Positions 289 through 63,833 of a stretch of 64,000 nt of DNA are shown piece by piece. Both the position numbers and the translations under genes were made by a program. The notes beneath the pieces are model-generated. The model saw nothing but the letters and a program-made list of their open reading frames with translations. It made no database searches and was not told where the DNA came from. Origin of the DNA: Brevibacterium sp. JSBI002 (GTDB lineage: Bacteria; Actinomycetota; Actinomycetes; Actinomycetales; Brevibacteriaceae); NCBI RefSeq assembly GCF_026013965.1, contig NZ_CP110341.1, forward strand, positions 2,790,001 through 2,854,000. The letters are read 5' to 3'. How positions within the stretch are numbered: position 1 is the stretch's first letter; every line of letters begins with the position of its first letter.

Positions 289-1407
289 TCAGTGGGTGTC
301 GGGAGGCTCTTCGCCGCTGCCCCGAGCGATGACGCACACTGCATTGTCGAAATCCGGCCCCTTGCCACCGTTATTGCCGTCCCTTGCAGTCACGTTCTCA
401 CCAGGATGTGTCCCCTCGCCGAGGCGGCCCCCACCGTCCCCGGAAATGCTGGGTCGGCCCCCGGAGACGCTGGAATCCGCGCTGGCACGGAGTCGTCGGA
501 CCGCCTCGGCGGCGAGGGATTCGACGTTGCGATCGACGACGGTGACATCGAGGAGTTCGGCCGTGGGGAAATCGTCGATGCCGACCAGTGCCGGCCATTC
601 GCCGAGGCGGCGGCAGGCGTCGATGGCACCTTGGGTCACTGTGGCGGACAGGGTGATGAGGGCTCCGGGTGCGCTGCGGGAACCGAGCCAGGCGGCGACG
701 ACGTTCTTCGCGCTGGCTTCGTCGTGGGCGTCTTCGCGCATATAGGCGCGCCAGCCGACGCCGCGGCGGCCGGCGATGGCGTCCTGGATTCCCTGCAGTC
801 GGCGGGTGGTGATGAGGCTGGGCGAATGGTCGCCGATGACGCCGAGTGCCATGTGCCCGTGAGCGAGCAGCTGTTCGGCCGCGAGGCGTCCCGCCTCACG
901 ATCGTCGCCTGCGACGATGCTGATTCCAGGGCCTTCGACCGCTGGGTCGAGGGAGACGATTCGAGTGCCCGGCGCCGAGGCGGCTCGTGCGTAGGTCTCG
1001 GCCGCCTCGGGGTGGGCGCGGATGACGATGAGCCCGGTCAGGTCGTTGGCGAGGCATTCGTCGAGGAAGGCTTCCTCCCGGTCGGGGTCGTCTCCGACCA
1101 CGGTCACCACCGGGCGCAGGTCGAGGGTTGCGAGCTCGGCTTCCACTGCTGCGAACGCACGGGCTTGGAAGGCATCACCGGCGTCGGAGAGGACGACGCC
1201 GATATAGGGTGAACGGCCTCCGGCACGCAAGCGCCTGGCCGTGGGGTTGAGGCGGAATCCGAGCTCTTCGGCGGCAGCTTCGACCTTCTCCGCCGTCGAG
1301 GCGGCAACGTGCTTTTCGCCGTTGAGGACGCGGGAGGCGGTTTTGATGCTCACGCCGGCACGCGCAGCGACCGTGGCCAGGGTCGGCCGATCGTTCTGCT
1401 TCGCCAT
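289..1407 (-). CDS. LacI-family transcriptional regulator
   Basis: The protein has 372 residues. The N-terminal helix-turn-helix contains TLATVAARAGVSIKTASRVL and is followed by the hinge LNPTARRLRAGG. The rest is a periplasmic-binding-protein-like effector domain (YIGVVLSD, LIVIRAHPE, LVGIDDF). I start it at the ATG at 1407, which has AAAGG seven bases upstream; an in-frame GTG lies two codons earlier at 1413. Near the C-terminus, before the final CVIARGS strand, there is a Gly/Asp-rich insertion of about 35 residues whose DNA contains the repeated 9-mer CCGAGGCGG. Gene order and the palindrome at 216-231 suggest control of the neighbouring sugar transporter. The ligand is unknown. Confidence 0.85.
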   Translation of the reverse strand: MAKQNDRPTLATVAARAGVSIKTASRVLNGEKHVAASTAEKVEAAAEELGFRLNPTARRLRAGGRSPYIGVVLSDAGDAFQARAFAAVEAELATLDLRPVVTVVGDDPDREEAFLDECLANDLTGLIVIRAHPEAAETYARAASAPGTRIVSLDPAVEGPGISIVAGDDREAGRLAAEQLLAHGHMALGVIGDHSPSLITTRRLQGIQDAIAGRRGVGWRAYMREDAHDEASAKNVVAAWLGSRSAPGALITLSATVTQGAIDACRRLGEWPALVGIDDFPTAELLDVTVVDRNVESLAAEAVRRLRASADSSVSGGRPSISGDGGGRLGEGTHPGENVTARDGNNGGKGPDFDNAVCVIARGSGEEPPDTH

Positions 1408-1517
1408 GCGCACACCTTTGAGTCTGAGAACCGGTTCGTGAATCTGCGCATCGGCGCACAGGCAACCGTTGGAATGATACTAACCGCTCGCGCGGCGGAC
1501 TCAGTTGTGCTGGCCTG

Positions 1518-1919
1518 TCACCGCCCGGTCGCCTTGGATGTGACAAGTTCAGCGACCAGTGTGCCCAATGCCACCAGAACGGCGGCCACCGACAAGAGGC
1601 CGAGCATGGGCAACCCGAACATGACGGTGATGATTCCGAGATAGCCCGAGTCATCGGAATACGGAATCGACCAGGCGGCCACGGCTATCGACAGACCGAC
1701 GACAAGGGCAAGGCCCCCTGTTGACTTTACAGCAACGCTCGCCGCTGATATCTGAGGCAGTGCCGCAATGATGAGCGTGCTGGCGATCAATGCGAAAGCC
1801 GCGCACATCGAATGGTAGGAGTTGACGGTTCCGGCCTCGAAATCGGAGCTGTCGAACAGAACATAGGCAGCATAGACGGCACCGCCCGAGGCGAGGGCCG
1901 CACTCAGTCTGAGCATCAT
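1518..1919 (-). CDS. small integral membrane protein of unknown function
   Basis: This is a 133-residue hydrophobic protein with four likely membrane segments: SAALASGGAVYAAYVLF, CAAFALIASTLIIAAL, GLALVVGLSIAVAAW and a long C-terminal segment rich in Leu, Val and Gly. A start at 1919 or 1916 is chosen because AGAAGG lies just upstream; a GTG at 1925 is also possible. I recognise no family and no catalytic motif. It stands alone between the lacI-family gene and the end of the siderophore operon, all on the same strand, and about 110 bp separate it from the regulator. Confidence 0.6.
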   Translation of the reverse strand: MMLRLSAALASGGAVYAAYVLFDSSDFEAGTVNSYHSMCAAFALIASTLIIAALPQISAASVAVKSTGGLALVVGLSIAVAAWSIPYSDDSGYLGIITVMFGLPMLGLLSVAAVLVALGTLVAELVTSKATGR

Positions 1920-2084
1920 CGTCACCTTCTTGCATGCGCACGAAGTACCGTACTAAAGGACTGTCTGAATGGACTGACCGACGCCGCAGTTGACCGACAG
2001 AATCGGGCTGTTCCTCTGGTTACTCTAAGCGCGTTCTCCCTGTTTCCACAGATGCGCACTGCAACGATCAGGTCTCAATACGCA

Positions 2085-2125
2085 TCGCCGAGGCGGGACC
2101 CCTTTCCGGAGCCCCGCCTCGGCGA
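2085..2125. repeat. hairpin built from two inverted copies of the CCGAGGCGG motif
   Basis: TCGCCGAGGCGGG at 2085-2097 pairs perfectly with CCCGCCTCGGCGA at 2113-2125 across a 15-base loop. It lies in the 370-bp gap between the membrane protein gene and the 3' end of the desferrioxamine operon, so it may end transcription of that operon, although no T-run follows. The rest of the gap holds only a weak CTCAGT/ACTGAG stem near 2190-2206 and no gene that I can support. Confidence 0.6.
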
Positions 2126-2289: not shown

Positions 2290-3357
2290 TCAGCGGGCCA
2301 CGGGGTTGGGCATAGTGCCCGCATAGAGGAGCGATCCGGCTTGGTTGCCGATGTCGACCATCTGCTTCGTGTTCTTCAGCTGCAGCCGGTTGAGGCACGA
2401 ATGGGCGAAGTGTTCGCCACGCAGGTCCACGTCGCCGCTGACACCGTGCGCCGCATCCGGGTGTTCTGCTTCGTAGTCGTCTAGGGTCTCGGCGACGATC
2501 GCCCAGAACCTCTCGGCCGGCAGCAGTCCGTCGCCGTCGAGGATGCCCGACAGGTGCCGCAGGACCCCATCGAACATATCGGTGAACACCGACAGCGCCT
2601 TCTCCTCCCCCGGCACTACGGCGCGGATGCGTTCGACGTCGGCGGGCAGTTCGCGATGGCCGAGCACGGCGACCTCCTCACCGATGTCCTTCATGAATGC
2701 CCCTGTCACCACATGTTCGTCGAGAACGAGGATGAGGTTCTCCCCGTGCGGCATGAACACGAGATCGTGGGCGAGCAGCGCATGCACAAGTGGTTTCAGG
2801 TAGGCCCGCAGGTAGCTGCGCACCCATGCCCCGGAACCCAAGCCAGATGCGCTGATGAGCTCGCTGGCCAGCGACACCCCTTGGTGATCCCGGTGCAGCA
2901 GGGCTGCCATGGTGACGAGCTTCTGACCTGGTTCGATCTGCTCGACAGGGTTCTCCCGCCACAGGGCAGCCAGCATCTTCCGGTGTGGGTTCGTCTCCTT
3001 CGTCTGGTGGTAGACGTCCCCCGTGTAGCCGAGCGCGGCACGCTCCCGCAGCACTCGGAATCCCGCCTCGGCGAAGGTCGGGTCGGATCCGACCAAGCCA
3101 GCGACCCAGTCGTTGATAGCCGGGGTGTCACGCATGTACTTCGGCGACAGGCCACGCAGGAATCCCATGTTCTGCACGGCGAGCGCAACCTTCACATACG
3201 GAGCTCCGGCCCGCGAATGGTTGAAGAACGTCCGCAGGGACTGCTGCGCCTGGTGCTTGTCGAGTCCAACACCTAACGGCAGAAGATCACCTCGGGCGAT
3301 ATCCGCAGCGAAGGTGATCGGCAGCCGGTGGTCGGCCTGCCAGGGGTGGATCGGCAT
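2290..3357 (-). CDS. desD: DesD-type NIS siderophore synthetase, C-terminal part (separated by frameshift)
   Basis: The 355 residues shown start at MPIHPWQ, but homology continues upstream in this frame to about 3400 (DPADFHL precedes it). The sequence matches the C-terminal two-thirds of IucA/IucC-family synthetases: LAQQSLRTFFN-type motif (AQQSLRTFFNHSRA), the FMPHGENLILVL motif, and the C-terminal LNRLQLKNTKQM. In desferrioxamine synthesis DesD uses ATP to condense N-hydroxy-N-succinylcadaverine units into the linear and cyclic siderophore. The N-terminal part of the enzyme lies in the adjacent frame within the preceding gene. Either a base is missing here or the gene is broken. The ATG at 3357 is therefore probably not a true start. 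Confidence 0.8.
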   Translation of the reverse strand: MPIHPWQADHRLPITFAADIARGDLLPLGVGLDKHQAQQSLRTFFNHSRAGAPYVKVALAVQNMGFLRGLSPKYMRDTPAINDWVAGLVGSDPTFAEAGFRVLRERAALGYTGDVYHQTKETNPHRKMLAALWRENPVEQIEPGQKLVTMAALLHRDHQGVSLASELISASGLGSGAWVRSYLRAYLKPLVHALLAHDLVFMPHGENLILVLDEHVVTGAFMKDIGEEVAVLGHRELPADVERIRAVVPGEEKALSVFTDMFDGVLRHLSGILDGDGLLPAERFWAIVAETLDDYEAEHPDAAHGVSGDVDLRGEHFAHSCLNRLQLKNTKQMVDIGNQAGSLLYAGTMPNPVAR

Positions 3358-4919
3358 GAGGTGGAAGTCAGCCGGGTCCTGTCCGGCCGCCGGATCCGGG
3401 CGCCGAAGAGGTCCCGTTCGGCTTCGCTGAGCGCCTCACCGAGGTGGCTCTCCTCGTCGAGTCCATCGCCTAGGGAGAGATGGCTGAGTTCGCGCCTCAC
3501 CGCTACCCATTCGATGCGGTTCAACTCGCCGTTCTCCGGTGCCCACTTGCGGAAGTCTCTGAGGCCGAAGCCGATGCGACCGTTGTTAGCGAGGAACCCC
3601 GGGTGCCCCTCGGTCATGGCCGCCTCGGTGGTCTGGAAATCCGCCTCGACGAGTGCACGTGCATCGGGTCTGCGTCCGACTCGAGCGTCTTCGAGTTTGA
3701 ACGCGGCCCCGGCCAGGGTCGAGGCGAGTTCCTCGAGGTAGGTGGAGATGAGGTCCTCCGGGATGGAGAGTGCGTCTTGGAGTTCGACGACGAGTTCCTG
3801 CGCGTCGAGCGGAACCTCGGTACCGTCGCGCCACCGGGTGATGCTGGCCTCGCCGATGACCCAGTGCTCGAGCGGCAGCACGCGCGCGGTGAATGTGTAC
3901 CGGCTGGCCCCGTCGATGCTCAGTTCCCAGGTTTGGCCTTCACCATTCGCCGAGGCGACTCCCCCATTCACATCGGCACTGCCGTTCGCGGCGGCTCGCT
4001 CGCCTTCGCCCACGTTCACCGGTCCGATGAGTCGTTCGTGGGCGAATTCGGACAGGGCTTTGGCGACGAGGTGGCGCTGCACGACGGCGAACGCATCCCC
4101 GTTGAGGTGGGCGTACGGTGCTGGTGGGGTTGCGAATGTCCGGACTGTGCGTGATTTGGTGGACCTCCGGTCACTGTCCGACTCGCCGGTCTCAGCCACG
4201 CGCGACTCCCGAGCACCGGCCGTGACGAACGGAGCCAGCGCGCTGGCCTCGAAATCCGAGCGAAGGCACACACTGACGAGCGCCGGTTTCTCGATCTCGC
4301 CCATCATGATGGTCGCCTCGGTGATGGGGGTGAAACCAGCAGCTCGGTTCTTCTCTATGATCGCGTCGTTCCTGGCATCGGGTTCGACGACGACACGTTC
4401 ACCTCCGCGTCCTCCCTGGTCAACCGGCTTCAGGCAGAAGTCGATGACCTCCGCCATGATGCGGTCGGTGAGGCCATGCACGGCCGGTCCTGCCGGCGGT
4501 GCGACGAGCAGGTGCATCCCGATGTCGCCGGGCCCGGTGGCCAGAACGTTCTGCGGGATGAGGGTGTCCGGAGTGTAGGTCTCGACGTAGAAGCAGTCGG
4601 TGCCGTCGACGGAGCCAACCCAACCGGCGTCGTCCGCGGAGTCGCGAATGCCATCCAAGTAGGTCCGGACCTCGTTCTCGTCGAGGTCGGTCATCATCCA
4701 GTAGTGAGCGCGCGGGTGGGTCAGCCACTCGTGGATCCGGGCGGTGTCCCGGTCGACGTCGAGCGGACGGATGGTCACTGTCGCCGAGGCGGCCGTGAGC
4801 TTCACGTCCGAACCGCGGTCCGTGCGCATACAGGTGGCGTTCGCATCAACCGCAGAATCGGTCGGATCGGTTTCGTCCGCCTCGGTGGTGGTCAGGCTGG
4901 TGATGAGTTCGGTGGTCAT
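3273..4919 (-). CDS. desC: DesC acyltransferase fused to N-terminal part of DesD (frameshifted)
   Basis: The start at 4919 overlaps the desB stop in ATGA, which indicates translational coupling. Residues about 45-215 form a GNAT acyltransferase of the siderophore type (VTIRPLDVDRD, IHEWLTHPRAHYW, VVVEPDARNDAIIEKNRAAGF) that would acylate N-hydroxycadaverine. After a charged linker (about residues 225-265), an IucA/IucC synthetase begins: FAHERLIGP, YLEELASTLAGAAFKL, MTEGHPGFLANNGRIGFG. Homology leaves this frame near 3400 (about residue 506) and resumes one frame over. The last 40 or so residues, rich in Arg, Ser and Thr, are out-of-frame read-through. In Streptomyces desC and desD are separate genes, so a fusion is notable. 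Confidence 0.85.
   Translation of the reverse strand: MTTELITSLTTTEADETDPTDSAVDANATCMRTDRGSDVKLTAASATVTIRPLDVDRDTARIHEWLTHPRAHYWMMTDLDENEVRTYLDGIRDSADDAGWVGSVDGTDCFYVETYTPDTLIPQNVLATGPGDIGMHLLVAPPAGPAVHGLTDRIMAEVIDFCLKPVDQGGRGGERVVVEPDARNDAIIEKNRAAGFTPITEATIMMGEIEKPALVSVCLRSDFEASALAPFVTAGARESRVAETGESDSDRRSTKSRTVRTFATPPAPYAHLNGDAFAVVQRHLVAKALSEFAHERLIGPVNVGEGERAAANGSADVNGGVASANGEGQTWELSIDGASRYTFTARVLPLEHWVIGEASITRWRDGTEVPLDAQELVVELQDALSIPEDLISTYLEELASTLAGAAFKLEDARVGRRPDARALVEADFQTTEAAMTEGHPGFLANNGRIGFGLRDFRKWAPENGELNRIEWVAVRRELSHLSLGDGLDEESHLGEALSEAERDLFGARIRRPDRTRLTSTSCRSTPGRPTTGCRSPSLRISPEVIFCR
3392..3406 (-). other. frameshift site inside the desCD gene
   Basis: On the minus strand, codons ending ...RDLFGAR are in the upstream frame, and PDPAAGQDPADF continues in the frame one base earlier. 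The junction falls in GGCGCCCGGATCCGG. A single missing base in this sequence, for example one C of the GCGCCC run, would restore one reading frame of about 875 codons. No classical X-XXY-YYZ slippery heptamer is visible, so a sequencing error or a true mutation is more likely than programmed frameshifting. Confidence 0.7.
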
Positions 4920-6349
4920 GCGTGTGACATCTCCTTGGAGTCGTCGAGTGCGAGGGCGGCATCGGGCACGGCATCGGATTCGTCGGCCGGCACCCCGAAG
5001 GTCTGGAAGGCGATGGTCCGTTCGATCGGATAGGGTTCCCGGCCGGTCACTGCGGCCAGCACCACCGAGGCCCGCCACGGGCCGAAGCCGAGGTCAGGTG
5101 CGGTCACGCCGTGGGTGTGCTCTTCGCCGCCTAGGACGTGGATGGTTCCTTCGTCGTTGATCGTGTAGTGGCGGCTGACGTCGAGACGGCCTCGGGAGTC
5201 CAGTCGGATGTCGTCGCCGAGGGGGCTGAGGAAGTCGGGGACCTGCGATTTGTATCCGGTGGCGGCGACCACGGACCCGGATCTCCTGGTGAACGTCTTG
5301 TCCAGTGCCGTGTTGCGGAAGCCGAGCAGATATTCGCCGCTGATCGGATCGATCTCGGCGGTTTCGAGTTCGGCTTCGGAGACGAGGTTCGTTTGCAGCT
5401 GCCGCCCGCCGCGGCTGAGCCGGTAGAGAGTGTCGTGGATGTCGTCGACGAGGTCCGCGGAAATGCCCTTGTACAGCGTGCGCTGTTCCCGGCCGACGCG
5501 TTCGCGCAGCTCATCGGGCAGAGCCCGGAAGTGGTCGGTGTACTCCGGGGAGGTCATCTCAAGTGTGAGCTTCGTGTATTCCATCGGGAAGAACCGCGGC
5601 GACCGGGTCACCCAGTCCAGGCGCGCTCCGCGGTCTTCGGCGTCGTCGAGGAGGTCACGGTAGATCTCGGCGGCGGACTGGCCGCTGCCGATGATCGTGA
5701 TCGCTCCGGAGTCGAGCAGCGCTTCCCGGTTCTCGAGATAGTCGGCGGTGTGGATGAGCGGGCCGGCGACGGGCAAGCCGACGGCACCGTCCCGGCCGGC
5801 AGCGGGCGAGTCGGCGGCTCCTCCCCCGAGCCCTTGCAGTGCAGGTGGCAGCACTGGCTGCGTTCCCACCCCGAGGACGAGATGCCGAGCCCGGTAGATC
5901 TCGGTCGTCAGGATCGAACCGGAGGCATCGACCACCTCGGCGAGGGCGGTGAACACATCGTCGTCCCTGGTCACGGACACGACGCGACGGTTCCATCGCA
6001 GCGTTTCCAGCTGGGCGGCGACCCACCGGCAGTATTCGTCGAATTCGGCGCGCAGGGGGTAGAACGATTCGCGGATGTAGAACGGGTAGAGCCGCTTGCG
6101 CTCCTTGAGGAAGTTGAGGAATGAGTACGGCGAGGTGGGGTCGGCCATGGTGACGAGGTCGGCCAGGAACGGCACCTGGATGGTCGAGCCTTCGATCATC
6201 ATGCCCGGGTGCCAACGGAATTCGGGGCGCTGATCGAGGAAGATCGCGTCGACGTCGTCGAGCGGTTCCGACAGTGCGGCCAGGCCGAGTCCGAACGGTC
6301 CGATGCCGACGCCGAGGATGTCGTGGATGGGCGTGGAATCTGCGCTCAT
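4916..6349 (-). CDS. desB: DesB, N-hydroxylating lysine/cadaverine monooxygenase
   Basis: This 477-residue FAD/NADPH enzyme hydroxylates the terminal amine of cadaverine, the second step in desferrioxamine synthesis. It shows the N-terminal FAD-binding stretch LGVGIGPFGLGLAAL, the substrate region FRWHPGMMIEGSTIQVPFL that is typical of the IucD/SidA/PvdA family, the NADPH-binding IIGSGQSAAEIYRDLL, and the C-terminal ATGYKSQVPDF. The start at 6349 overlaps the desA stop in ATGA, and the stop overlaps desC in the same way, so the three genes form one tightly coupled unit. Regulation should come from the iron box upstream of desA. Confidence 0.93.
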   Translation of the reverse strand: MSADSTPIHDILGVGIGPFGLGLAALSEPLDDVDAIFLDQRPEFRWHPGMMIEGSTIQVPFLADLVTMADPTSPYSFLNFLKERKRLYPFYIRESFYPLRAEFDEYCRWVAAQLETLRWNRRVVSVTRDDDVFTALAEVVDASGSILTTEIYRARHLVLGVGTQPVLPPALQGLGGGAADSPAAGRDGAVGLPVAGPLIHTADYLENREALLDSGAITIIGSGQSAAEIYRDLLDDAEDRGARLDWVTRSPRFFPMEYTKLTLEMTSPEYTDHFRALPDELRERVGREQRTLYKGISADLVDDIHDTLYRLSRGGRQLQTNLVSEAELETAEIDPISGEYLLGFRNTALDKTFTRRSGSVVAATGYKSQVPDFLSPLGDDIRLDSRGRLDVSRHYTINDEGTIHVLGGEEHTHGVTAPDLGFGPWRASVVLAAVTGREPYPIERTIAFQTFGVPADESDAVPDAALALDDSKEMSHA

Positions 6350-7998
6350 GCTGCGCCTCCTTCTGTCGCTGCATCCTCGAGCTCCCGGCCGGCGAGGATG
6401 CCGTGCCCGGTGGCACGGACGAGGTCGAGCACGGCGGTGACGTCGTCGATGCGGGTGTCGGGGTTGAGCAGGGTGAGTTTGAGCCACGGCGTGCCGTCGA
6501 TGACGGTGCGGGCGATGGCGGCGCGGCCGGAGCGGAAGAGGACTCGGCGGATGAGCGGGACGAGTTCGTCGCAGGTGACCTGGTCCGCGGTCGCCGGGGT
6601 GAATCTGAAGAGCACCGTGGACAGGTCCGAGGCGCCGAGCACTTCGAAGTCCGCCTGGTCCTCGAGCAGCGCCCGGACGTCGGTCGCGAGGTCGCAGACG
6701 GCGTCGAGCATCGATCCGATCTCCCCTGCTCCGCGGGCGCGCAGCGTCGTCCAGAGCTTGAGCGCGTCGAAGCGGCGGGTGGTCTGCAGGGACTTGTCGA
6801 CCTGGTTCGGTTCGGCGTCGGCTTCTTGCGCTTCGGCTTCGGGATTGAGGTAGTCGTGGTGGTGGATCGTCGGCGCGAACAGGCTCGCGTCCCTGGTGAG
6901 CAGGGCCGATGAGGACACGGGCTGGAAGAACGTCTTATGGAAGTCGATGGTCACCGAGGTGGCCCTGGAGATCCCGTCGAGCAGGTGGGCGCGTTGTGGG
7001 GCCCAGAGCAGTCCGCCGCCGTATGCGGCGTCGACGTGCAGCCACACGTTCGCTGATTCGCAGACCTCGGCGATGGTCTCGAGCGGGTCGATGACACCGA
7101 GGTCGGTGGTTCCGGCGGTGGCGACGACGGCCATGGGGATCTGGTCGTTCGCCTCGATCGCGAGCAGGCTGGCGTTGAGCGCTTCGGCATCCATGCGACC
7201 GGACCCGTCGGTCGGGACGGTCACGACCGCCTCGGCGTCGAGGCCGAGGAGGAACGCAGCGCGGGACACTGAGAAGTGGGCCTGGTCGGTGGCAAGGATC
7301 CGCAGCCGGGACAGCAGGTCGCGGCGGTTGGGCGCGCCCAGGTCAGGGCCGCCTCGGCGAGATTCGGCGTCATCGGCCTCAACGTGTCCCGCCGCCTCGG
7401 CGAGGACGTTTTCGCGGGCGAGGAACAGTGCCTGGAGGTTCGACTGGGTGCCTCCGGAGGTGAATATTCCATCGCCGCCGGCGAAGCCGAGGTGGGCGCA
7501 GGTCCAGTCGATGAGGCGGCGTTCCATGAGGGTGGCGACTTCGGATTGGTCGTAGGTGTCGACCGAGGTGTTGATGGCGGCGAGCATCGCTTCGGCGGCG
7601 ACGGCGGGCACGGCGACGGGGCAGTTGAGGTGGGCGACGTAGCTGGGGTGGTGGAACCACACGGCATTGTCGGCGTAGAGGGCGTCGACTTCGCGCAGAG
7701 CTTCGGCGTTGCCGACGCCTGCGGTGTCGAGGTCGACAGCGTCGACGGCGGCCTGGAGTCCGGAGCGATCCTTCGCCGAGGCGGCGCGCTCAGTTGTGCG
7801 GAACCGTTCGCCGAGTGCGTCGACGACGTCGTGCATGAGCGATGTGTACTCGTCTGCGCTGTGGGCGCCGAGGAGGGCATCAGTGTGGGCGTCACGATCG
7901 CTGACGGTGCCAACGGCGTCCGGGTGGGGGATTTCGGGGGTCTGAAGGGGTGCTGAGGTGGGTGTCGCTTCGGTGTCGTAGAGCAGAGAAGTCGTCAC
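6346..7998 (-). CDS. desA: DesA, PLP-dependent lysine decarboxylase
   Basis: This 550-residue group II PLP decarboxylase converts lysine to cadaverine, the first committed step of desferrioxamine synthesis. It has the cofactor motifs HVDAAYGGG and TIDFHKTFFQP with the Schiff-base lysine, and SGGTQSNLQAL near the phosphate-binding region. I place the start at the GTG at 7998, because GAAGGAGG lies ten bases upstream; an upstream in-frame ATG at 8028 lacks a good site and would put the ribosome-binding site inside the gene. An iron box lies about 50 bp upstream. A short Gly/Ala-Asp linker within it carries two copies of the CCGCCTCGG motif. Confidence 0.93.
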   Translation of the reverse strand: MTTSLLYDTEATPTSAPLQTPEIPHPDAVGTVSDRDAHTDALLGAHSADEYTSLMHDVVDALGERFRTTERAASAKDRSGLQAAVDAVDLDTAGVGNAEALREVDALYADNAVWFHHPSYVAHLNCPVAVPAVAAEAMLAAINTSVDTYDQSEVATLMERRLIDWTCAHLGFAGGDGIFTSGGTQSNLQALFLARENVLAEAAGHVEADDAESRRGGPDLGAPNRRDLLSRLRILATDQAHFSVSRAAFLLGLDAEAVVTVPTDGSGRMDAEALNASLLAIEANDQIPMAVVATAGTTDLGVIDPLETIAEVCESANVWLHVDAAYGGGLLWAPQRAHLLDGISRATSVTIDFHKTFFQPVSSSALLTRDASLFAPTIHHHDYLNPEAEAQEADAEPNQVDKSLQTTRRFDALKLWTTLRARGAGEIGSMLDAVCDLATDVRALLEDQADFEVLGASDLSTVLFRFTPATADQVTCDELVPLIRRVLFRSGRAAIARTVIDGTPWLKLTLLNPDTRIDDVTAVLDLVRATGHGILAGRELEDAATEGGAA

Positions 7999-8046
7999 TG
8001 TGAGGTTTCCTCCTTCGATGATGCGCACCGCGAAGCGCGGCTTGCA

Positions 8047-21114: not shown

Positions 21115-22536
21115 TCACACGGCTTCGAGCGCCTCGACGGGACTGATCGAGGTGGCCGCGCGGGCGGGTTCGCGGCTCGCGACGAACACGGCGATGAGGG
21201 TGCCGGCGATGACGGCGATGACGACCGTCCAGGGCACGCTCGGTGCGAAGAGGCCGAGCAGGGGCGAGAGCAGGGTCAGTGCGCCGACCCACCCGAAGCC
21301 GATGCCCAGCGGGACGGCGACCGCGCAGGCGGTCAGGCTCAGTTGCAGGCCTTCGGCGGTGATCATCCGCCGCACGCGCTTCGGGGTTTGGCCCAGTGCC
21401 ATGAGCAGGCCGATCTCCTGAGTGCGCTGCCGCACGGAGAGCATGAGCGTGTTCGCGACGCCGATGACGGCGATGATCACGGAGAACAGGATGAGGGCCA
21501 GCGCGAACAGCATCGACTTGTCGATGACCGTGGCCAACGCGTCTTCGAGGCCGCCCCACCCCTCTTCGCCGAGCGACCTGGCATACCGCAGCAGCTGATC
21601 GCGGAAGGTCGTCATGGCGGTGGCGAACATGACGATGAGCGTGATGCCGATGACGAGACCGATGACCGTGCGCGCGTTCCGGGTGGGATGGCGGGCGATC
21701 GTCGAGGCGGCCAACCGGGACACTGCGGTGCGCCCGCACAGCCAGCCGATCGCCGCCTGCAGGGGCGGCAGGATCCACGGGTGGCCGATGATGACGCCGA
21801 TGAAGGTCAGGCTTGAGCCGAATGCGGTCAGCACCACGCTGATCACGCTGATCCGATGGTCGGCGGCCCCGATCACGGAGTTGACGAGGAACGTAAGCCC
21901 CATCGACAGCAGAATCAGCGAGGCGGTGAGTCCGCCGAGTGAGGCGCGGGCGTCCTCGGGCCGGAGCTCCACCGCCTGCGAGGTCGCCTCGATCGGTGAG
22001 ATCCCCGTGATGCGGCGCGCACCCAGGTACGCCGAAGCCCAAGTCACGATGATCGTGGCGAGAGCGGGGACGGCCATGGTCGGGGTGAGGAGGGCGACCT
22101 CCTCGGTGATGGCGTTGCCGAGGAAATTCTGAGCCGCTCGCGCCAGCCCGGTCGACGCGGCGAAGGCGAGCACCGCGGCGGGGACGGAGATGATCAGTCC
22201 CTCCACCGAGGCGGCCCTGCGCAGCCGTTTCGACGACGCACCGATGAGGCGCAGCAGAGCCAGCTGGCGGCTGCGACCGGCGATGATGATCGAGAACGTG
22301 TTCGCGATGACGATCGCGGAGACGAAGAGGGCGATGAGGAAGAAGGTGACACCGATCATCGAGAGGAAGTTCTGCGCGGACTCGGATTCGGCGATGATCT
22401 TCTCTGACGACAGCCACGCGGTCAGGATCGCGATGCCCTGCATGATCGCGCTGCCGAAGAGGGCGGCGATGAAGACGACGAGGACGCTGGGGAAGAACTG
22501 CCGCGGGTTGGTCCTGATTTCGCGCAGCGGGTTCAT
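21115..22536 (-). CDS. ABC transporter permease, FtsX/MacB type
   Basis: The protein has 473 residues with two FtsX domains. The first transmembrane block begins near residue 15 (FFPSVLVVFIAALFGSAI), with a further two near 60 and 110; the second block covers about 205-465, including the conserved ANTLMLSVRQRTQEIGLLMALG and ISPVEALEAV. The short first extracytoplasmic loop and two-domain layout fit exporters of peptides or lipoprotein-like cargo rather than the cell-division FtsX. It is the second gene of an operon, its start overlapping the ATPase stop in ATGA. The substrate is unknown. Confidence 0.88.
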   Translation of the reverse strand: MNPLREIRTNPRQFFPSVLVVFIAALFGSAIMQGIAILTAWLSSEKIIAESESAQNFLSMIGVTFFLIALFVSAIVIANTFSIIIAGRSRQLALLRLIGASSKRLRRAASVEGLIISVPAAVLAFAASTGLARAAQNFLGNAITEEVALLTPTMAVPALATIIVTWASAYLGARRITGISPIEATSQAVELRPEDARASLGGLTASLILLSMGLTFLVNSVIGAADHRISVISVVLTAFGSSLTFIGVIIGHPWILPPLQAAIGWLCGRTAVSRLAASTIARHPTRNARTVIGLVIGITLIVMFATAMTTFRDQLLRYARSLGEEGWGGLEDALATVIDKSMLFALALILFSVIIAVIGVANTLMLSVRQRTQEIGLLMALGQTPKRVRRMITAEGLQLSLTACAVAVPLGIGFGWVGALTLLSPLLGLFAPSVPWTVVIAVIAGTLIAVFVASREPARAATSISPVEALEAV

Positions 22537-23983: not shown

Positions 23984-24025
23984 GCACGCAAACCGGGGTG
24001 GCCGCCTCGGTGACGGTGAATGCGG

Positions 24026-24093: not shown

Positions 24094-25713
<1,620 letters not shown>

Positions 25714-27730: not shown

Positions 27731-27838
27731 TGTGAGTTTCCTGAGGGCGTGTCTGACCTGGAGTTCCCCGAGTTTCAGGGCATTCTCGATCGTGATATTT
27801 CCTCGCCGAGGCGGCCGCACGTTCCGTTATCTCGCTCA

Positions 27839-35298: not shown

Positions 35299-37209
35299 AT
35301 GACACACACCGCAGACTCCCCGGCCCCAACCAGGCGCATCGCCCGCGAGCGCCTGGCGAGGAAACGCGAAAAAGTGCGTGCCGGCGCCGCTGCGATGCGC
35401 CGCGAAACCTTCCACGCCGGCATGTGGGCCACCCGCGCACCGCTGTGGATGTGGCCGGCCCTGCTCGTCATCACCGGAATCGGTGCGGCCCTGCGACTCT
35501 TCCGCCTCGATTTCCCACACCGCCTGATCTTCGACGAGACCTACTACGTCAAGGACGGCTACTCGGTCTTCAACTTCGGCTACGAACGCTCCTGGCCCGA
35601 GAACGCCGACGATTCCTTCAACGCCGGTGACCCCAGCGTCATCGAACCCACCCCCGAATACGTCGTCCACCCGCCCCTGGGCAAATGGCTCATCGGGTGG
35701 GGCATCGGCCTCTTCGGCGCCGACGATTCGTTCGGCTGGCGCTTCACCGTGGCGATCATCGGCACCCTGACGATCTTCCTCCTCGGCGTCATCGCCTGGA
35801 AGCTCTTCCGCTCGGCGTTCTTCGCCTGCGTCGCCGCCGGCCTGCTCGCCATCGACGGCGAGCACTTCGTCCACTCCCGCACGAGCCTGCTCGACATCGT
35901 GCTCATGGCCTTCGTCCTCCTCGCCTTCTTCTTCATCCTCCTCGACCGCGAGCAGGTGACGAAGCGTCTGGCCGCTTGGACCCAGGGCACCGTGGAGATC
36001 GACAGCTCCGCTCCCTCCCGCACACTGCAGAATCCAGATCCCCTCCCCGAGGCGGCCGCTTCCTCCCCATCCGACCCCGATGAGGTCCCCCGAACCTTCC
36101 CGACCGAACTCAACGAGTCGATCACCTCCGCCGCCCCACTCCCCGAGGCGGCCCCGCCCACCGCGGAAGCCCGGCGTAGGCGTCGGACGAAGTCCAGGGA
36201 CGTGATCAACTTCGGGCCCCGCCTCGGCGCGCGTCCCTGGATCTTCGCCGCGGGCATCAGCCTGGGCCTGGCTACGGGAGTGAAGTGGTCGGGTCTGTAT
36301 GCGCTGGCGGCGTTCGGGATTCTGCTCGTTCTGTGGGATGTGCATTCGCGGTATCGGGCCGGGGTCGTGCATCCGTGGCTGGGCATGTTCATCCGCGACA
36401 GCATTCCCTCGTTCTTCAAGCTCGTGCCGATCGCGCTCGTGACCTATGTGGCGTGCTGGACCGGGTGGATCCGTTCGGATGACGCGTGGGACCGACAGTG
36501 GGCAGCGGAGAATTTCGGCTGGTGGCGTGCGCTGCCGGAGTGGTTGGACTGGCTGCCGTCGCTGGCGCACTACCACTACACGGCGTACTCGTTCCACGTC
36601 GGGCTGGACTCGGAGCATCCGTACATGTCGAACCCGTGGGGTTGGATCGTGCAGTGGCGGCCGACGTCGTTCTACTACGAGTCCTACGACCGGGGCGATA
36701 TGGGATGCACGGTCGCGAAGTGCTCCTCGGCGATCACCTCGGTGGGCAACCCTGTGATCTGGGGCTTGGCCGCCTTGGCTGTGCTCGTCTGCCTCATCGT
36801 GTGGATCATCCGGCGGGACGTCCGACCAGCCGTCATCCTCGCCGGCCTGGCGGCGACCTGGCTGCCGTGGTTCGCCTACCAGGAACGGACGATCTTCACC
36901 TTCTACACCATCGTCATGGTGCCCTTCGTCGTGCTGGCCGTGACATACTGCCTGACGCTCGTCTGGGGTCGGGTGCCTGTTGGCGGGCAAGCGTCGTCGG
37001 GGCCGGAGGCCGTGCGGGCGTCGCCGGGGCCTGCGAGGAAGCAGCGTTTCGCTCGGATCTCGGCGGCACTGTTCGCCAGGCGACTGAGCGTCGGCCTGTT
37101 CCTCGTTGCAGCGATCCTCGCCTTCGCCTACTTCTGGCCCGTCTACACCGGTGAGGTCATCCCGTTCTCGGCCTGGAACAACCGCATGTGGAACGTCACC
37201 TGGCGCTGA
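35299..37209 (+). CDS. pmt: polyprenyl-phosphate-mannose protein mannosyltransferase (PMT)
   Basis: The protein has 636 residues and resembles Rv1002c, which O-mannosylates secreted proteins during Sec export. The essential acidic pair lies in LIFDETYYVKDGYSVF, and HPPLGKWLIGWGIGLFG follows in the first extracytoplasmic loop. About ten membrane helices are seen, including the C-terminal FWPVYTGEVIPFSAW. A Pro/Glu/Ala-rich insertion of about 60 residues near 230-295 carries two CCGAGGCGG motifs and interrupts the protein between LLDREQVTKRLAAW and RDVINFGPRLG. The location beside rsmI is conserved in actinobacteria. Confidence 0.92.
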   Translation: MTHTADSPAPTRRIARERLARKREKVRAGAAAMRRETFHAGMWATRAPLWMWPALLVITGIGAALRLFRLDFPHRLIFDETYYVKDGYSVFNFGYERSWPENADDSFNAGDPSVIEPTPEYVVHPPLGKWLIGWGIGLFGADDSFGWRFTVAIIGTLTIFLLGVIAWKLFRSAFFACVAAGLLAIDGEHFVHSRTSLLDIVLMAFVLLAFFFILLDREQVTKRLAAWTQGTVEIDSSAPSRTLQNPDPLPEAAASSPSDPDEVPRTFPTELNESITSAAPLPEAAPPTAEARRRRRTKSRDVINFGPRLGARPWIFAAGISLGLATGVKWSGLYALAAFGILLVLWDVHSRYRAGVVHPWLGMFIRDSIPSFFKLVPIALVTYVACWTGWIRSDDAWDRQWAAENFGWWRALPEWLDWLPSLAHYHYTAYSFHVGLDSEHPYMSNPWGWIVQWRPTSFYYESYDRGDMGCTVAKCSSAITSVGNPVIWGLAALAVLVCLIVWIIRRDVRPAVILAGLAATWLPWFAYQERTIFTFYTIVMVPFVVLAVTYCLTLVWGRVPVGGQASSGPEAVRASPGPARKQRFARISAALFARRLSVGLFLVAAILAFAYFWPVYTGEVIPFSAWNNRMWNVTWR

Positions 37210-37564: not shown

Positions 37565-39075
37565 GTGAATGACCAATCGACGACCTACGAGCCCGACGCA
37601 ACCGAGCTTCAGTCGGAAATGAAGCCGGATGCGCGCACCACCGTGGCCGCGAACCAGGCGGCAGAAAGCACCACCGCACCAACCAGCACCACCTCCCCCA
37701 CTCCCCACCGCACCGTTGCGATCATCCCCGCGCGCGGAGGGTCCAAGGGCATCCCACTGAAGAACCTGCAGAAGGTCGCCGGAATCTCCCTGCTCGCCCG
37801 CGCCATCAACGCCGCCCAGGCCAGCCCCAGCATCGACCGTGTCATCGTCTCGACCGACCACGACGGAATCGCAGCCGAAGCCCTGCGCGCCGGCGCCGAG
37901 GTGGCCCACCGCCCCGCCGAGATCGCCGGTGACACCGCCACCAGCGAATCCGCGCTCATCCACACGCTGTCGACCCTCGACGAGGACTTCGACATCACCG
38001 TGTTCATGCAGTGCACCTCCCCCTTCATCGACTCCGCTTCGATCGAGAACGCGGTGCGCACGGTCCGTGCCGACGACGCCGATGTCGTCTTCTCCGCCGT
38101 CGAAGACCATTCCTTCCTGTGGCGCCTCGACGACGACACCCAGGCAGTGGCCGTCGGACACGAAGCCAGCTTCCGGCCGCGCCGCCAGGACCGCGCCAAG
38201 CACTTCAACGAAACCGGTGCGTTCTACGTCATGCGCACCTCCGGCCTCATCGAGCACGAGCACCGCTTCTTCGGCCGCATCGGCATCGAGGAAGTCCCGC
38301 CCGAGCACGCCCGTGAGATCGACGACATGTCCGACCTCACTCTCGTCCGCGCCATCGCAGCATCCCAGACCCAGGAAACCGCGCAGGTCATCGACGTCGA
38401 CGCCCTCGTCACCGATTTCGACGGCGTCCACACCGACGACGGCGCCTACGTCGACGAGGACGGAAACGAACAGGTCCGCGTCCACCGCGGCGACGGCATG
38501 GGCATCTCCCGACTCGTGAAGTCCGGCGTGCCCGTGATGATCCTGTCGAAGGAACGCAACCCCGTCGTCACCCGCCGCGCGGAGAAGCTGCGCGTCGACG
38601 TCGCCCAGGGCATCGACAACAAGGCAAGCATCCTCGACGCGTGGATCACCGCCAACGACCTCGACCCGGCCCGCGTCGCCTACGTCGGCAACGACATCAA
38701 CGACCTCGAGGCCTTCGACGTCGTCGGCTGGCCCATCGCCGTCGCCGACGCCCACCCGCGAGTCCTCGCCGCCGCCCGCGTCATCCTCGACCGGCCCGGC
38801 GGACGGGGTGCGGTGCGTGAGGTCTGCGACCTCATTCCCATCCCCGCCGAGGCGGCCGAACCCCTTCCGAATCCGACCCTGACCTCGCTGCGGTCGCCCA
38901 CCGGACACCCATCGACCTTGGCAGGCCACCAGTCAGGACACCTGGCCGACCACCAGTCGGCGGCCATGTCCGGCCACGCGTCCGCCTTCCCCGACCAGCA
39001 ACCGTCCGTCCCGCGGCACCAGCCGCAGTTCACCAACCGCGCGGAGATTTCGCGTGCCAACCGAAAGCAGGTTTC

Positions 39076-39079: not shown

Positions 39080-39963
<884 letters not shown>

Positions 39964-40007: not shown

Positions 40008-40040
40008 CGGCGCCATCACCTCACCGAGGTGGTGGCGCCG
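40008..40040 (+). terminator. neuAB terminator hairpin containing the 9-mer motif
   Basis: CGGCGCCATCACCTC pairs with GAGGTGGTGGCGCCG at 14 of 15 positions around a 3-base loop, followed by TTCC. It lies 45 bp past the neuB stop. The loop and right arm include CCGAGGTGG, the motif repeated through the window. Confidence 0.75.
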
Positions 40041-50353: not shown

Positions 50354-50738
50354 TCACCGGTCCCGTCGTGGAGCTCGTCCGCCCGCCGGATACACCGGGC
50401 AAGCGAACCTATTGATCACCCACTGCTACGCCCCGGACATGGACATCGGGTTACGTCGGAGGAAAATGCTGCTGGATTCTGCCCCGACTTCGACCGCCGT
50501 TCACCGTCTCGTCACCCCCTGTCGCCGAGGCGGTCATCGGCTTCCGCCCCACGCCCCCAGTGAGTTCTTCGTCACGATCGACTGCCTATGCGTCCTTTTA
50601 TGACATCCCATGACGACGCCGAGGCGGTTCCTTGTCATCCTGAATCGTCGGCCCTACTGGACCGTAGACCGACCCATCCCCAAATCTCTGCCGTCCACCA
50701 CCGTGCGCGGCATTCGTCAACCACACGAGGAGGCGCCT
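50354..50738. other. intergenic region before metN, no gene recognised
   Basis: The 385 bp between the divergent GT2 gene and metN hold two CCGAGGCGG motifs (near 50532 and 50621) and the metN ribosome-binding site GAGGAGG. I looked for an S-box or SAM-IV riboswitch and a McbR-like inverted repeat and recognised neither. A promoter for metN must lie here but I cannot place it. Confidence 0.5.
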
Positions 50739-53389: not shown

Positions 53390-53445
53390 CTACCTGACGG
53401 CGGCCCAGCAACCTCGCGCGAGGTTGCTGGGCCGCCGTCAGGTAG
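53390..53445. repeat. 56-nt perfect palindrome, copy 1
   Basis: The sequence starting CTACCTGACGGCGGCCCAGC is fully self-complementary over 56 nt with no loop; the centre is CGCGCG-like (CTCGCGCGAG). It starts 11 bp past the metQ stop and is followed by TTTGG. An identical copy lies at 55084. As RNA it would form a 26-bp or longer hairpin and could terminate transcription. Confidence 0.95.
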
Positions 53446-55083: not shown

Positions 55084-55139
55084 CTACCTGACGGCGGCCC
55101 AGCAACCTCGCGCGAGGTTGCTGGGCCGCCGTCAGGTAG
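55084..55139. repeat. 56-nt perfect palindrome, copy 2
   Basis: The copy is identical base for base to the palindrome at 53390-53445, including its CTACCTGAC ends. Here it lies between the ABM-protein gene and fhs (convergent), 22 bp past the first stop and 19 bp from the second. A bidirectional terminator is a plausible role. Flanks differ from copy 1 (CTG/TAATT), so the repeat unit ends near the palindrome ends. Confidence 0.95.
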
Positions 55140-56928: not shown

Positions 56929-57087
56929 AAGGCCATCATGCCCGTTCCGCGAGATTTTGTGACCATCACCGACCCGAGAATTCGCGCAATGTGCACTCAG
57001 TTCCGCCCACCGCAACATCAACCTCGCCGAGGCGGCCCGCCGCCTCATCGCTCGACGGGTGAGAGTCGTGTGCGCGAGGATGGACAC

Positions 57088-60508: not shown

Positions 60509-60514
60509 CGGGGT

Positions 60515-62000: not shown

Positions 62001-62525
62001 ATGACACAGTCAGTGACAGTTCCCGACCCCCACGGCTCAGAGAAGACCACTCGCGAGAACGCCGAGCGCGGCTTCATCGCCTCCGACGCCCTGACCAAGA
62101 ACCTCCAAACGGTTCTGGTCGACTTCATCGCTCTGAGCCTGACCGCCAAGCAGGCGCATTGGAATATCGTGGGCACGAACTTCCGAGACCTGCACCTCAA
62201 CCTCGACGAAGTCACGGACATCGCCCGTGCAGGCAGCGATGAGATCGCTGAACGCATGCGTGCCCTCCACTCCGCTCCGGACGGTCGCCCCGCGGTGATC
62301 GCCGAACAGACAGGGCTGCCGGAGTTCCCGAACGGAGAGATCAGCACCCACGACGCCATCGACCACATGGTCGCGTCGATCGAGGCAACCGTAGCGTCGA
62401 TGCGTGACTGCCATGACGAGGTCGACTCGGCGGATCCGACGACCGCCGACATCTTCCACAGCTACATCGCTCAGCTCGAGCAGCAGGCCTGGTTCATCAG
62501 CGCAGAGACCCGCACTCCCAAGTGA
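62001..62525 (+). CDS. dps: DNA-protecting ferritin-like protein Dps
   Basis: The protein has 174 residues of the Dps/MrgA family, a 12-mer cage that oxidises and stores iron. The ferroxidase motif region has LSLTAKQAHWNIVGTNFRDLHLNLDEV and GSDEIAERMRAL, with the key histidine and the aspartate/glutamate pair. A short N-terminal tail (about 25 residues) is typical. It is preceded by GGAGAACAGGAG. No iron box is seen upstream, so regulation by an OxyR-like or stress factor is possible but unproven. Confidence 0.93.
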   Translation: MTQSVTVPDPHGSEKTTRENAERGFIASDALTKNLQTVLVDFIALSLTAKQAHWNIVGTNFRDLHLNLDEVTDIARAGSDEIAERMRALHSAPDGRPAVIAEQTGLPEFPNGEISTHDAIDHMVASIEATVASMRDCHDEVDSADPTTADIFHSYIAQLEQQAWFISAETRTPK

Positions 62526-62557
62526 GTCGGTGCGACTGAGCAGCCGCTCTGGTCTTC

Positions 62558-62595
62558 GGGCCGCCTCCCCTTCCTCACGGTCGGGCAGGCGGCCC
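62558..62595. terminator. bidirectional hairpin between dps and lhgO
   Basis: GGGCCGCCT at 62558-62566 pairs with AGGCGGCCC at 62587-62595 around a 20-base loop, between the convergent dps and lhgO stops. A short TTC follows on the plus strand. A terminator for both genes is likely. Confidence 0.6.
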
Positions 62596-62621
62596 TTCGT
62601 CGTCGAGGCCCGCCACCGGCA

Positions 62622-63833
62622 TCATCGCCCGTCGATGATGCCGACGAGGTGTTCGGCAATGGCCAGCGCCGAGGTGGCTCCCGGGGACGGCGCGTTCCTG
62701 ACGAACAGTGTGGCTCCCGCCCGATCGATGACGAAATCATCAACGAGTGTTCCATCCCGATTCATGGCCTGCGCGCGGATTCCGCGGGTGGCGCGGTGAC
62801 CGTCGGCTGCGGCGAGCGAGGGAACGTAGCGGGCCGCCTCGGCGACGAATCTCTCGATCGAGAGCACCCCGGGCAGCTCACGGGCAGCGGTGGCCATATT
62901 GGCTGCTGCGAAGCGCCAGAATCCGAGGTCGGCGGCCACGGCCAGGGAGTCGGGGATATTGAGGCCGAGACCTCGGTAGCCTTCGCGGGAGAACGAGAGG
63001 AAGGCATTGGGGCCGATCATCAGACCGCCATCGATACGTCGGGTGACGTGGACGCCGAGGAAGGGATATTTCGGGTCCGGGACGGGGTAGATGAGTCCGT
63101 TGACCGTGTTGCTGTATGCCTCGTCGAGGATGAAGTACTGCCCGAAGAACGGCACCACGGTGGGAGTGCGCTCCTGTCCGGAGCGAGCGGCGAGGCGGTC
63201 GGACTGGAGCCCGGCGCAGACGATGACGTGGTCGAATTCCTGGGCGTCGACCGGGGTGCGGACGATGGCGGTGTCACGGGTGGGGCCGCCTCGGTGATCG
63301 ATGTTCTTGACCGGGGTGGAGAAGCGGACGCGGCCGCCGTGGGCGCGAAAGTCGGCGACGAGGGCGTCGGTGAGGCCGGGGTAGTCGATGATCGCGGTGT
63401 GAGGTGAGTGGAGGGCTGCGAGGCCTTCGGCGTTCGGTTCGATATCACGCAGGCCGTCGCGGTCGAGCAGGGCGATGTCGGGGACGCCGTTGGCCAGGGC
63501 ACGATCACGGATGGCTTGAAGAAGTTCGACTTCTGTGTCGTCGGTGGCGACGACGACCTTGCCGCATTCGTCGAAGGCGACATTGTGGTCGTTTGCGAAG
63601 TCGGTCAGGAGCGAGACGCCCCGGCGGCAGAGCGTGGCTTTGAGGCTGCCTGGCTCGTAGTAGAGACCGGCGTGGACGACTCCGGAATTGTGGCCGGTCT
63701 GGTGGGCGGCGGGGTGGTCTTCTTTTTCGAAGAGGGTGACGTCGGCGGAGTCGTGGCGGCCCTGGATCTCGCGCGCGACGGCGGCTCCAATGATGCCGGC
63801 CCCGACAACTGCCCATCGTATCTTCTTCGCCAT
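62622..63833 (-). CDS. lhgO: L-2-hydroxyglutarate oxidase/dehydrogenase
   Basis: The protein has 403 residues. An FAD-binding motif (WAVVGAGIIGAAVAREI) is followed by TGHNSGVVHAGLYYEPGSLKATLCRRG, the diagnostic LhgO segment, and later FDHVIVCAGLQSDRLA, VPFFGQYFIL, LGVHVTRRIDGGLMIGPNAFLSF and TRGIRAQAMNRDGTLVDDF. It oxidises L-2-hydroxyglutarate to 2-oxoglutarate, a repair or lysine/glutarate catabolic step. It is a single gene convergent with dps. Two CCGCCTCGG motifs lie within it. Confidence 0.92.
   Translation of the reverse strand: MAKKIRWAVVGAGIIGAAVAREIQGRHDSADVTLFEKEDHPAAHQTGHNSGVVHAGLYYEPGSLKATLCRRGVSLLTDFANDHNVAFDECGKVVVATDDTEVELLQAIRDRALANGVPDIALLDRDGLRDIEPNAEGLAALHSPHTAIIDYPGLTDALVADFRAHGGRVRFSTPVKNIDHRGGPTRDTAIVRTPVDAQEFDHVIVCAGLQSDRLAARSGQERTPTVVPFFGQYFILDEAYSNTVNGLIYPVPDPKYPFLGVHVTRRIDGGLMIGPNAFLSFSREGYRGLGLNIPDSLAVAADLGFWRFAAANMATAARELPGVLSIERFVAEAARYVPSLAAADGHRATRGIRAQAMNRDGTLVDDFVIDRAGATLFVRNAPSPGATSALAIAEHLVGIIDGR

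Follow-up and report, generated by a model that had tools for sequence, protein, structure and literature searches.

Here, we report on a 64-kb window of the Brevibacterium sp. JSBI002 genome in which the word CCGAGGYGG (Y = C or T) occurs 84 times, 39 times on the forward and 45 times on the reverse strand. A first-pass annotation had put the number at about 75 (about 36 and 40 per strand), a figure that did not hold, although the enrichment behind it did. The first copy lies at 419-427 (+) and the last at 63286-63294 (−), 3 bases off the end of 63297 previously assigned to the series. Pattern matching further places copies at 975-983 (+), 2088-2096 (+), and 62834-62842 (−) and, between called genes, at 50525-50533, 50619-50627, and 57027-57035 (all +), as well as at 24002-24010 (−) between two convergent called genes. 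Another copy between convergent called genes (40024-40032, +) falls within a self-complementary stretch. All sites that had been named as examples (419, 975, 2088, 24002, 28561, 28591, and 62834) are occupied by a copy, and 11 copies were counted across 3273-8028, the region that the first-pass annotation named the des operon and credited with 8 or so.

Within the window, several copies were compared with those of related genomes. The copies at 22206-22214 (+; pattern match and alignment) and 32291-32299 (+) are intact in most aligned relatives and in most relatives of the window clade, respectively, and 15 of the 17 relatives aligned at 36219-36227 (−) have an intact copy there. Of the 12 relatives aligned at the intergenic copy 27806-27814 (+), 11 retain it, with C and T exchanged at the degenerate position, and one is gapped. 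The copy at 39254-39262 (+) is often altered in relatives, and the matched and aligned copy at 28561-28569 (−) sits in a length-variable stretch, 30 bases from its neighbour at 28591-28599 (−). Further copies found by pattern match and alignment lie at 28690-28698 (−), at 28992-29000 and 29463-29471 in metG (both −), at 32685-32693 (−), and at 36047-36055, 36143-36151, and 37896-37904 (all +). The copy at 24531-24539 (−), inside a gene (24094-25686) that is GroEL-like by its start, is conserved outside the window clade too, and protein constraint may therefore contribute to its retention.

The word is strongly over-represented throughout the genome. Thousands of copies, far more than expected by chance, are present in the 3.74 Mb: CCGAGGYGG occurs 2837 times (1421 and 1416 by strand) as compared to 188 times (86 and 102) for the reversed pattern, and the 11-mer CGCCGAGGCGG occurs 1321 times (661 and 660) as compared to 17 for the control, with a 33-fold enrichment over the expectation of an order-3 Markov model. 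Since reversal breaks codon structure, the reversed word makes a lenient control; the synonymous shuffle considered below is stricter. For the window, with both letters and both strands summed, Markov models of order 3, 4, and 5 predict 9.9, 13.4, and 25.9 copies, where the first-pass annotation had estimated about 4 in 64 kb by chance; expectations under orders 6 and 7 approach the observed count because these models have absorbed the word itself. The over-representation claimed at first reading was thus borne out and is larger than described, and the whole-genome and Markov comparisons yielded neither a background that predicts the count nor a lack of enrichment elsewhere in the genome. Density is about 0.76 copies per kb genome-wide, mostly within genes, and reaches 1.31 copies per kb in the window, the densest of 21 stretches, the twenty others (20 kb each) ranging from 0.3 to 1.2 per kb. 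The specificity of the word is sharp, as 23 of the 33 one-base neighbours of CGCCGAGGCGG are enriched less than 3-fold and the substitution scan is asymmetric. Counts by half of the contig (69/82 and 110/124) reveal no strand polarity. A polar segregation motif of the KOPS type, for which a strand bias by replication arm would be expected, is rejected on these counts, as the even strand use noted at first reading had already argued. DNA uptake sequences (DUS and USS) are likewise short, asymmetric words that lack polarity and occur on both strands.

Across the genus, a CGAGG core recurs and is followed by a 3' flank that varies with the clade, i.e., YGG in the window clade, YCS in others, and TGCC in two small genomes. 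The corresponding words are CGCCGAGGYGG (dialect 1), CGCCGAGGYCS (dialect 2), and [CA]CGAGGTGCC (dialect 3). Several species that are poor in dialect 1, and that we initially regarded as motif-less, carry dialect 2; genomes G058 and G072 have neither dialect 1 nor dialect 2, but an unbiased ranking of words uncovered dialect 3 in both. In G198, G223, and G086+G220 the signal of dialect 2 is weak, and between genes this dialect is in small excess. The dialects with their shared core track phylogeny, in that they follow the metG tree in part, with one clade (G214, G222, G213+G142, and G058+G072) mixed in dialect. In the control genera, other Micrococcales, dialects 1 and 2 were both absent.

The word is kept beyond the needs of protein coding. 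If the word simply followed from codon choice and amino-acid content, such as Ala-Glu-Ala stretches in a GC-rich genome, this would fit the commonest reading frame, (Ala/Thr)-Glu-(Ala/Val), which holds 182 of the 332 CRCCGAGGYGR copies within genes. Synonymous shuffling, however, leaves just 11.3 of 137 and 72.9 of 323 genic copies, i.e., codon usage accounts for 11 of the 137, and the 11-mer excess after this correction is still 12-fold. All six reading frames are raised, the spaces between called genes hold 44 copies of CGCCGAGGYGG, and word ratios in Arthrobacter, Pseudarthrobacter/Paenarthrobacter, Kocuria, and Rothia are 0.44-1.61. We thus reject codon and amino-acid usage as the main cause and regard it as highly improbable. 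Conservation is apparent at the DNA level, where synonymous change within motif copies proceeds at 0.31-0.39 of its normal rate. An intergenic repeat or terminator was likewise rejected, as 323 of 385 copies in a 464-kb sample are inside called genes and the word is thus not confined to intergenic hairpins as a REP-type repeat would be.

The first-pass annotation had also likened the word to HIP1 of cyanobacteria. By analogy, the core could be recognised by a solitary DNA methyltransferase, with the word written and maintained through repair linked to methylation or through selection in favour of methylated sites. An orphan Type III Mod-like enzyme (G000:C1:346109-347602, −) is the candidate, with no partner gene evident among the called neighbours as judged by protein starts. 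Of the 57 genus genomes, 55 encode an orthologue. None is present in three other genera of the family, the 183 genomes outside the genus hold no match of comparable score (best 94 bits), and an alignment of 26 rows shows conservation between the catalytic motifs. Cyanobacterial HIP sequences are described as accompanying matching methyltransferases and, at about one copy per kb, as giving way to different words in certain lineages (PMC4390886), much like the dialects described here. We initially favoured the methyltransferase because the only genomes without the gene, G058 and G072, had neither dialect 1 nor dialect 2, and demoted it once dialect 3 was found in both. Moreover, the central region of the enzyme is common to clades of differing dialect, and the SMRT methylome of B. 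linens SMQ-1335 lists CGGANNNNNNTTC and DTGAAT, which are unlike the word (PMC5105094), in a short note whose motif list may be partial and for a strain that may or may not carry the gene and the word. While HIPs are palindromes tied to methyltransferases, the Brevibacterium word is non-palindromic (CGCC-GA-GGCG is self-complementary outside its centre only, and the tolerated changes are asymmetric) and persists in genomes without the candidate enzyme. Both points weaken the likeness to HIP1, and we consider a methylation-driven origin unlikely. An acquired C5 methyltransferase was rejected, as a search with PF00145 found nothing in the genome that contains the window and matched 26 of 57 genomes of the genus, a patchy distribution.

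Chi sites, too, are short and asymmetric and are maintained in genomes in excess of expectation, with an orientation bias by replication arm. The Brevibacterium word could analogously alter the action of a recombination or end-processing enzyme and be kept for promoting repair by recombination. Its short, G-rich, asymmetric, genic, and clade-variable character and its somewhat higher density near contig ends agree with such a role, but orientation bias with respect to the contig arms is absent and the excess is far stronger than that of Chi, so that a function of this kind appears improbable. Equally doubtful is a scaffold role, in which an abundant protein of the nucleoid or of segregation would bind the word and would have drifted in specificity from clade to clade. 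High, near-random density chromosome-wide, lack of polarity, and a strict core would be compatible with a scaffold of this type, but copy spacing is uneven (CV 1.02) and one 13-kb stretch of L098 is devoid of copies.

It is tempting to propose that copies of the word mark DNA as self throughout the genome, in the manner of a DNA uptake sequence, a reading to which we would give somewhat less than an even chance. The proposal draws on the anatomy of the word and on ComEC (PF03772) and TadE (PF07811), which were detected in 57 of 57 genus genomes and belong to families that are neither competence-specific nor limited to motif-rich clades. As both are equally present in weak-word clades and widespread in bacteria (ComEC also in 10 of 14 control genomes), they do not discriminate between readings, and their universal presence in the genus gives no support to the idea that the weak clades became so by losing competence genes. 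Briefly, a putative sequence-specific reader, probably part of a pilus/ComEC DNA-uptake route, would prefer word-bearing DNA. Repeated transformation with DNA of relatives would then spread copies by recombination and preserve them by uptake bias, and each clade would hold its own dialect around the common CGAGG core. Transformation with Flp pili was reported for another actinobacterium, Micrococcus luteus (PMC4322843). Our literature search found no transformation of Brevibacterium in print and no paper on the word or on an actinobacterial uptake sequence; text matches to the 11-mer strings looked unrelated among the matches listed.

Known uptake sequences come, to our knowledge, from Gram-negative bacteria. 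The likeness to those of Neisseria and Pasteurellaceae, as suggested at first reading, is strengthened by the presence, within the genus, of dialects built on one common core. The Neisseriaceae DUS is likewise a short asymmetric word in thousands of copies, with a conserved core and clade variants described as following phylogeny (PMC3630211). Yet its core is CTG instead of CGAGG, the Brevibacterium dialects vary mainly 3', and Brevibacterium is a single-membrane organism of another phylum, in which biased uptake is putative. The USS of Pasteurellaceae, at about one copy per kb, has a density similar to that of the Brevibacterium word. It is also similar in its 9-base core and its occurrence on both strands (PMC1626085, PMC1939737), but differs in sequence and phylum, and most one-base variants of the Brevibacterium word are near background.

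Highly iterated words are known in few groups, and each indicated a dedicated mechanism, i.e., uptake in Neisseria and Haemophilus and a link to methylation in cyanobacteria. We tentatively suggest, with somewhat less confidence than for a self tag as such, that Brevibacterium possesses a pilus/ComEC self-recognition system reading a CGAGG-core word, that it originated independently of those in Pasteurellaceae and Neisseriaceae, and that its dialects act as barriers to gene exchange within the genus. Within the scope of the literature search, this would be the first DUS-like system of any actinobacterium, and, if true, the genus-wide dialects would represent an independent origin. The question of what builds iterated words becomes testable in Brevibacterium, whose closely related and harmless species lend themselves to comparisons of dialect swaps, methylomes, and transformation, and the answer would guide DNA delivery into these bacteria.

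The 9-mer CCGAGGYGG occurs 84 times in the window, with 39 copies on the forward strand (starts at 419, 602, 975, 2088, 3439, 4784, 6954, 7487, 7776, 11128, 11191, 14350, 16366, 17005, 17318, 18464, 18590, 22206, 23108, 23568, 23799, 27806, 32291, 36047, 36143, 37896, 38847, 39254, 40024, 43512, 44004, 46058, 47924, 50525, 50619, 53810, 57027, 57608 and 62669) and 45 on the reverse strand (lowest coordinates 501, 1002, 2114, 3063, 3620, 4877, 5932, 7227, 7349, 7392, 9265, 11793, 13296, 13452, 14606, 14810, 16836, 17758, 17788, 19002, 20963, 24002, 24531, 28561, 28591, 28690, 28992, 29463, 32685, 33060, 36219, 41061, 42994, 43698, 44133, 45628, 47222, 48960, 49774, 51226, 52383, 54849, 58525, 62834 and 63286). 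Markov models of orders 3, 4 and 5 predict 9.9, 13.4 and 25.9 copies, respectively; the over-representation described in the first-pass annotation thus stands, while its count of about 75 was too low. Enrichment also extends to the rest of the genome: the single contig of strain JSBI002 (G000; 3,741,678 bases, window at C1:2790001-2854000) carries 1421 + 1416 copies compared with 86 + 102 of the reversed word, and 661 + 660 copies of the longer 11-mer CGCCGAGGCGG compared with 6 + 11. Across a 464-kb sample of this genome (the window and 20 stretches of 20 kb), motif density ranged from 0.3 to 1.31 per kb and spacing was near random (CV 1.02; 24 gaps <50 bases vs 16.3 expected). A separate 54-base, REP-like hairpin repeat with two 23-base arms lies between called genes at 53391-53444 and 55085-55138 and was seen in seven of the 20 other stretches (L085, L087, L089, L090, L092, L099, L100).

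The motif is sharply bounded. In a substitution scan, CGCCGAGGCGG was observed 177 times against 5.4 expected (order 3; 33-fold), and 23 of its 33 one-base neighbours stayed below 3-fold, with changes at position 1 or 4-8 reaching only 0-2.8-fold. Partial tolerance was seen at positions 2 (A 15.5-fold, C 7.3-fold), 9 (T 22.9-fold, A 5.8-fold) and 11 (A 7.3-fold). A T precedes 106 and a C follows 97 of the 177 copies, and the working motif is about T-C-R-C-C-G-A-G-G-Y-G-R-C-C, which is asymmetric.

Our own simple gene caller predicted 376 genes on the 464 kb (81% coding, boundaries approximate). Called genes hold 323 of 385 9-mers and 62 lie between them, some possibly in missed genes, at similar densities (0.86 and 0.71 per kb). 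Codon usage as the main cause of the motif was ruled out, as synonymous codon permutation within genes left only 72.9 (sd 7.5) of the 323 9-mers and 11.3 (sd 3.8) of 137 11-mers (reversed 11-mer, 3 observed vs 2.5), CGCCGAGGYGG is in excess in all six frames (5 copies each vs 0.0-0.3 expected in three of them), and 44 of its copies lie between called genes. Genes of higher GC are richer in the motif (0.24 per kb in the lowest fifth by GC, 1.42 in the highest), and placement along genes is uniform (p 0.78). Short convergent and tandem gaps carry 1.18 (8 copies) and 1.06 (23 copies) per kb, short divergent gaps 0.37 (4 copies). The even strand use noted initially was borne out, with plus/minus counts of 69/82 and 110/124 on the two contig halves (p 0.83) and hence no strand polarity. 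Over the 21 stretches, the motif is denser nearer the contig ends (Spearman -0.58, p 0.006; p 0.02 once GC is taken into account).

Conservation acts at the DNA level. MetG relatives are Brevibacterium species, the closest being B. sediminis, B. epidermidis, B. permense and B. iodinum, and window positions 18900-40000 were aligned to six close and eleven more distant Brevibacterium loci. Synonymous third positions in the motif were identical in 96.2% of 393 close and 88.5% of 489 distant comparisons, whereas 87.7% and 70.3% were expected from the same codons outside the motif; synonymous change was thereby 0.31 and 0.39 of usual. Whole 9-mers were kept in 85 of 111 close and 61 of 127 distant cases, compared with 478/900 and 292/1215 for letter-permuted words. 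Of 17 aligned relatives, 15 have site 36219 intact; for site 27806, which lies between called genes, the figure is 11 of 12 (the other gapped), and adjoining bases vary at both sites; others, e.g., 39254 and 28992, are often altered. Such retention of a preferred word would result from selection or drive alike.

The order was represented by 198 genomes, 15 of them from the genus. CGCCGAGGCGG is above 75 per Mb in 10 of these 15 but in none of the other 183, where G026 comes highest at about 73 per Mb. Across 57 genus genomes its copies range from 13 to 1767, and several CGCCGAGGCGG-poor species carry CGCCGAGGCCG in its place (618 copies in G226, 561 in G205, 559 in G227, 815 in G198, 622 in G223, 324 in G239, 282 in G170 and 213 in G207, compared with 120 in G000). 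Because raw CGCCGAGGCCG counts overlap at the low end, with up to 256 (G204) in genomes rich in CGCCGAGGCGG, ratios of observed copies to those left by synonymous shuffling weigh more. By this measure, dialect 1 (CGCCGAGGYGG) is in excess in G000 (218/20.9), 17 named window-clade loci (139/16.0), G142 (7/0.5), G213 (9/0.3), G222 (5/1.2), G201 (3/0.9) and G006+G203 (7/2.0), and not in G226, G239, G170+G207, G198 and G223 (ratios 0.22-0.69). Dialect 2 (CGCCGAGGYCS), a 3' flank variant on the same CGAGG core, is in excess in G170+G207 (28/4.7), G239 (52/10.7), G226 (55/17.9) and G214 (14/4.8), also in G142 (5/1.0) and G213 (3/0.8), and weakly in G198 (43/20.0), G223 (12/7.0) and G086+G220 (13/5.8). 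The excess extends to an antisense frame (15/1.8, 12/1.1, 7/0.2), with just 3 (G226), 4 (G239) and 3 (G170+G207) copies between genes, and 4 vs 4 of the reversed word in G198+G223. The CGCCGAGGCCG scan (30 observed vs 2.2 expected in G226, 27 vs 1.1 in G239) returned the dialect 1 core in somewhat looser form, with C preferred at position 10 (G there 0.4-fold in G226, 3.8-fold in G239).

Neither dialect is in excess in genomes G058 and G072 (1/1.0 and 2/1.2; 2/2.4 and 6/5.0). When their words were ranked without bias against synonymous shuffles, CGAGGTGCCG came out as the leading 10-mer (20 vs 2.0). This third, TGCC-type dialect includes CCGAGGTGCCG (17 copies in 253 kb vs 1.07 expected), ACGAGGTGCCG (14 vs 0.7, with a sharp scan) and CCGAGGTGCC (6/0.3 in G058, 12/2.9 in G072; between genes 9 in 27 kb of G072, 0 in 10 kb of G058). 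Its borders are less clear, as counts are slightly raised (2-5 copies) in G142, G213, G222, G239 and G242. On G072 contig 1 (L112-L114), many CTCCCGTTAGCA- and CGCTTTAG-based repeats lie within 60 kb, without relation to the motif. Of 13 separate Brevibacterium groups, 10 have a CCGAGG- or CGAGG-core word as their top 10-mer, the exceptions being G214, G086+G220 and G222; no such word leads in any of the four control groups (Arthrobacter, G240, G241, G242). On the metG tree, a limited guide based on one gene, dialect 1 belongs to the window clade and its neighbours and dialect 2 to the clade of yomogidense, senegalense, jeotgali and album. The remaining clade is mixed, with dialect 3 in G058+G072, dialect 1 (mostly with T) in G213+G142, a weak dialect 1 in G222 and a dialect 2-like word in G214. 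Ratios for dialects 1 and 2 were 0.44-1.61 and 0.74-1.56 in Arthrobacter, Pseudarthrobacter/Paenarthrobacter, Kocuria and Rothia loci, 0.62-1.27 and 1.24-1.77 in three other family genera, and, on too few copies to carry weight, 1/0.5 and 2/2.1 in a 21-kb Sediminivirga locus; dialect 3 had no copies in G240 and G241 and gave 1/2.9 in Arthrobacter and 3/0.7 in G242. Two other family genera show raised words, TGGACGNCGT in G242 (L223-L229; 30 genic vs 11.3 by shuffle) and CGCCGATG in G241 (L230-L235; 95 vs 41.5), both weaker than that of Brevibacterium and perhaps their own.

For coupling to a methyltransferase, as in the HIP-like model (PMC4390886), there was a candidate. A profile search with PF01555 had matches in 56 of the 57 genomes and pointed to a solitary Type III Mod-like enzyme (G000:C1:346109-347602, i.e., L126:8106-9602, minus strand). 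Its nearest solved chains are Mod subunits, e.g., of EcoP15I, and an alignment of 26 rows shows its central region conserved from clade to clade. Within the genus, 55 of 57 genomes have an orthologue; none was found in three other family genera, and no match of comparable score appeared among 183 genomes outside the genus. The enzyme fitted as a HIP-like cause until both genomes without it, G058 and G072, showed dialect 3; it is not needed for keeping a CGAGG-core word, although it may still play a part. A SMRT methylome is reported for B. linens SMQ-1335 and may also count against the enzyme, with only CGGANNNNNNTTC and DTGAAT given in a short note whose list may be incomplete (PMC5105094). 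We regard a methyltransferase-coupled word as unlikely, and we give slightly less credence to a Chi-like word and, equally, to a scaffold word.

Among known classes, uptake sequences fit best, because the word is dense, sharp, asymmetric, non-polar, mostly genic and conserved at the DNA level, with dialects that share a core. ComEC and a TadE-type pilin are encoded in 57 of 57 genus genomes, and transformation via Flp pili is reported for the actinobacterium Micrococcus luteus (PMC4322843). The first 13 kb of stretch L098 (G000:C1:2900001-2913000; stretch GC 0.623) hold no motif copy and are possibly a recent import, which uptake and methylation models alike would leave free of the motif; judged from protein starts, genes at L098 1-13000 resemble a surface-polysaccharide cluster. 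It is tempting, if tentative, to propose that CCGAGGYGG is an uptake-sequence-like word of Brevibacterium, which would entail a reader of the motif, a bias in uptake and spread by recombination.
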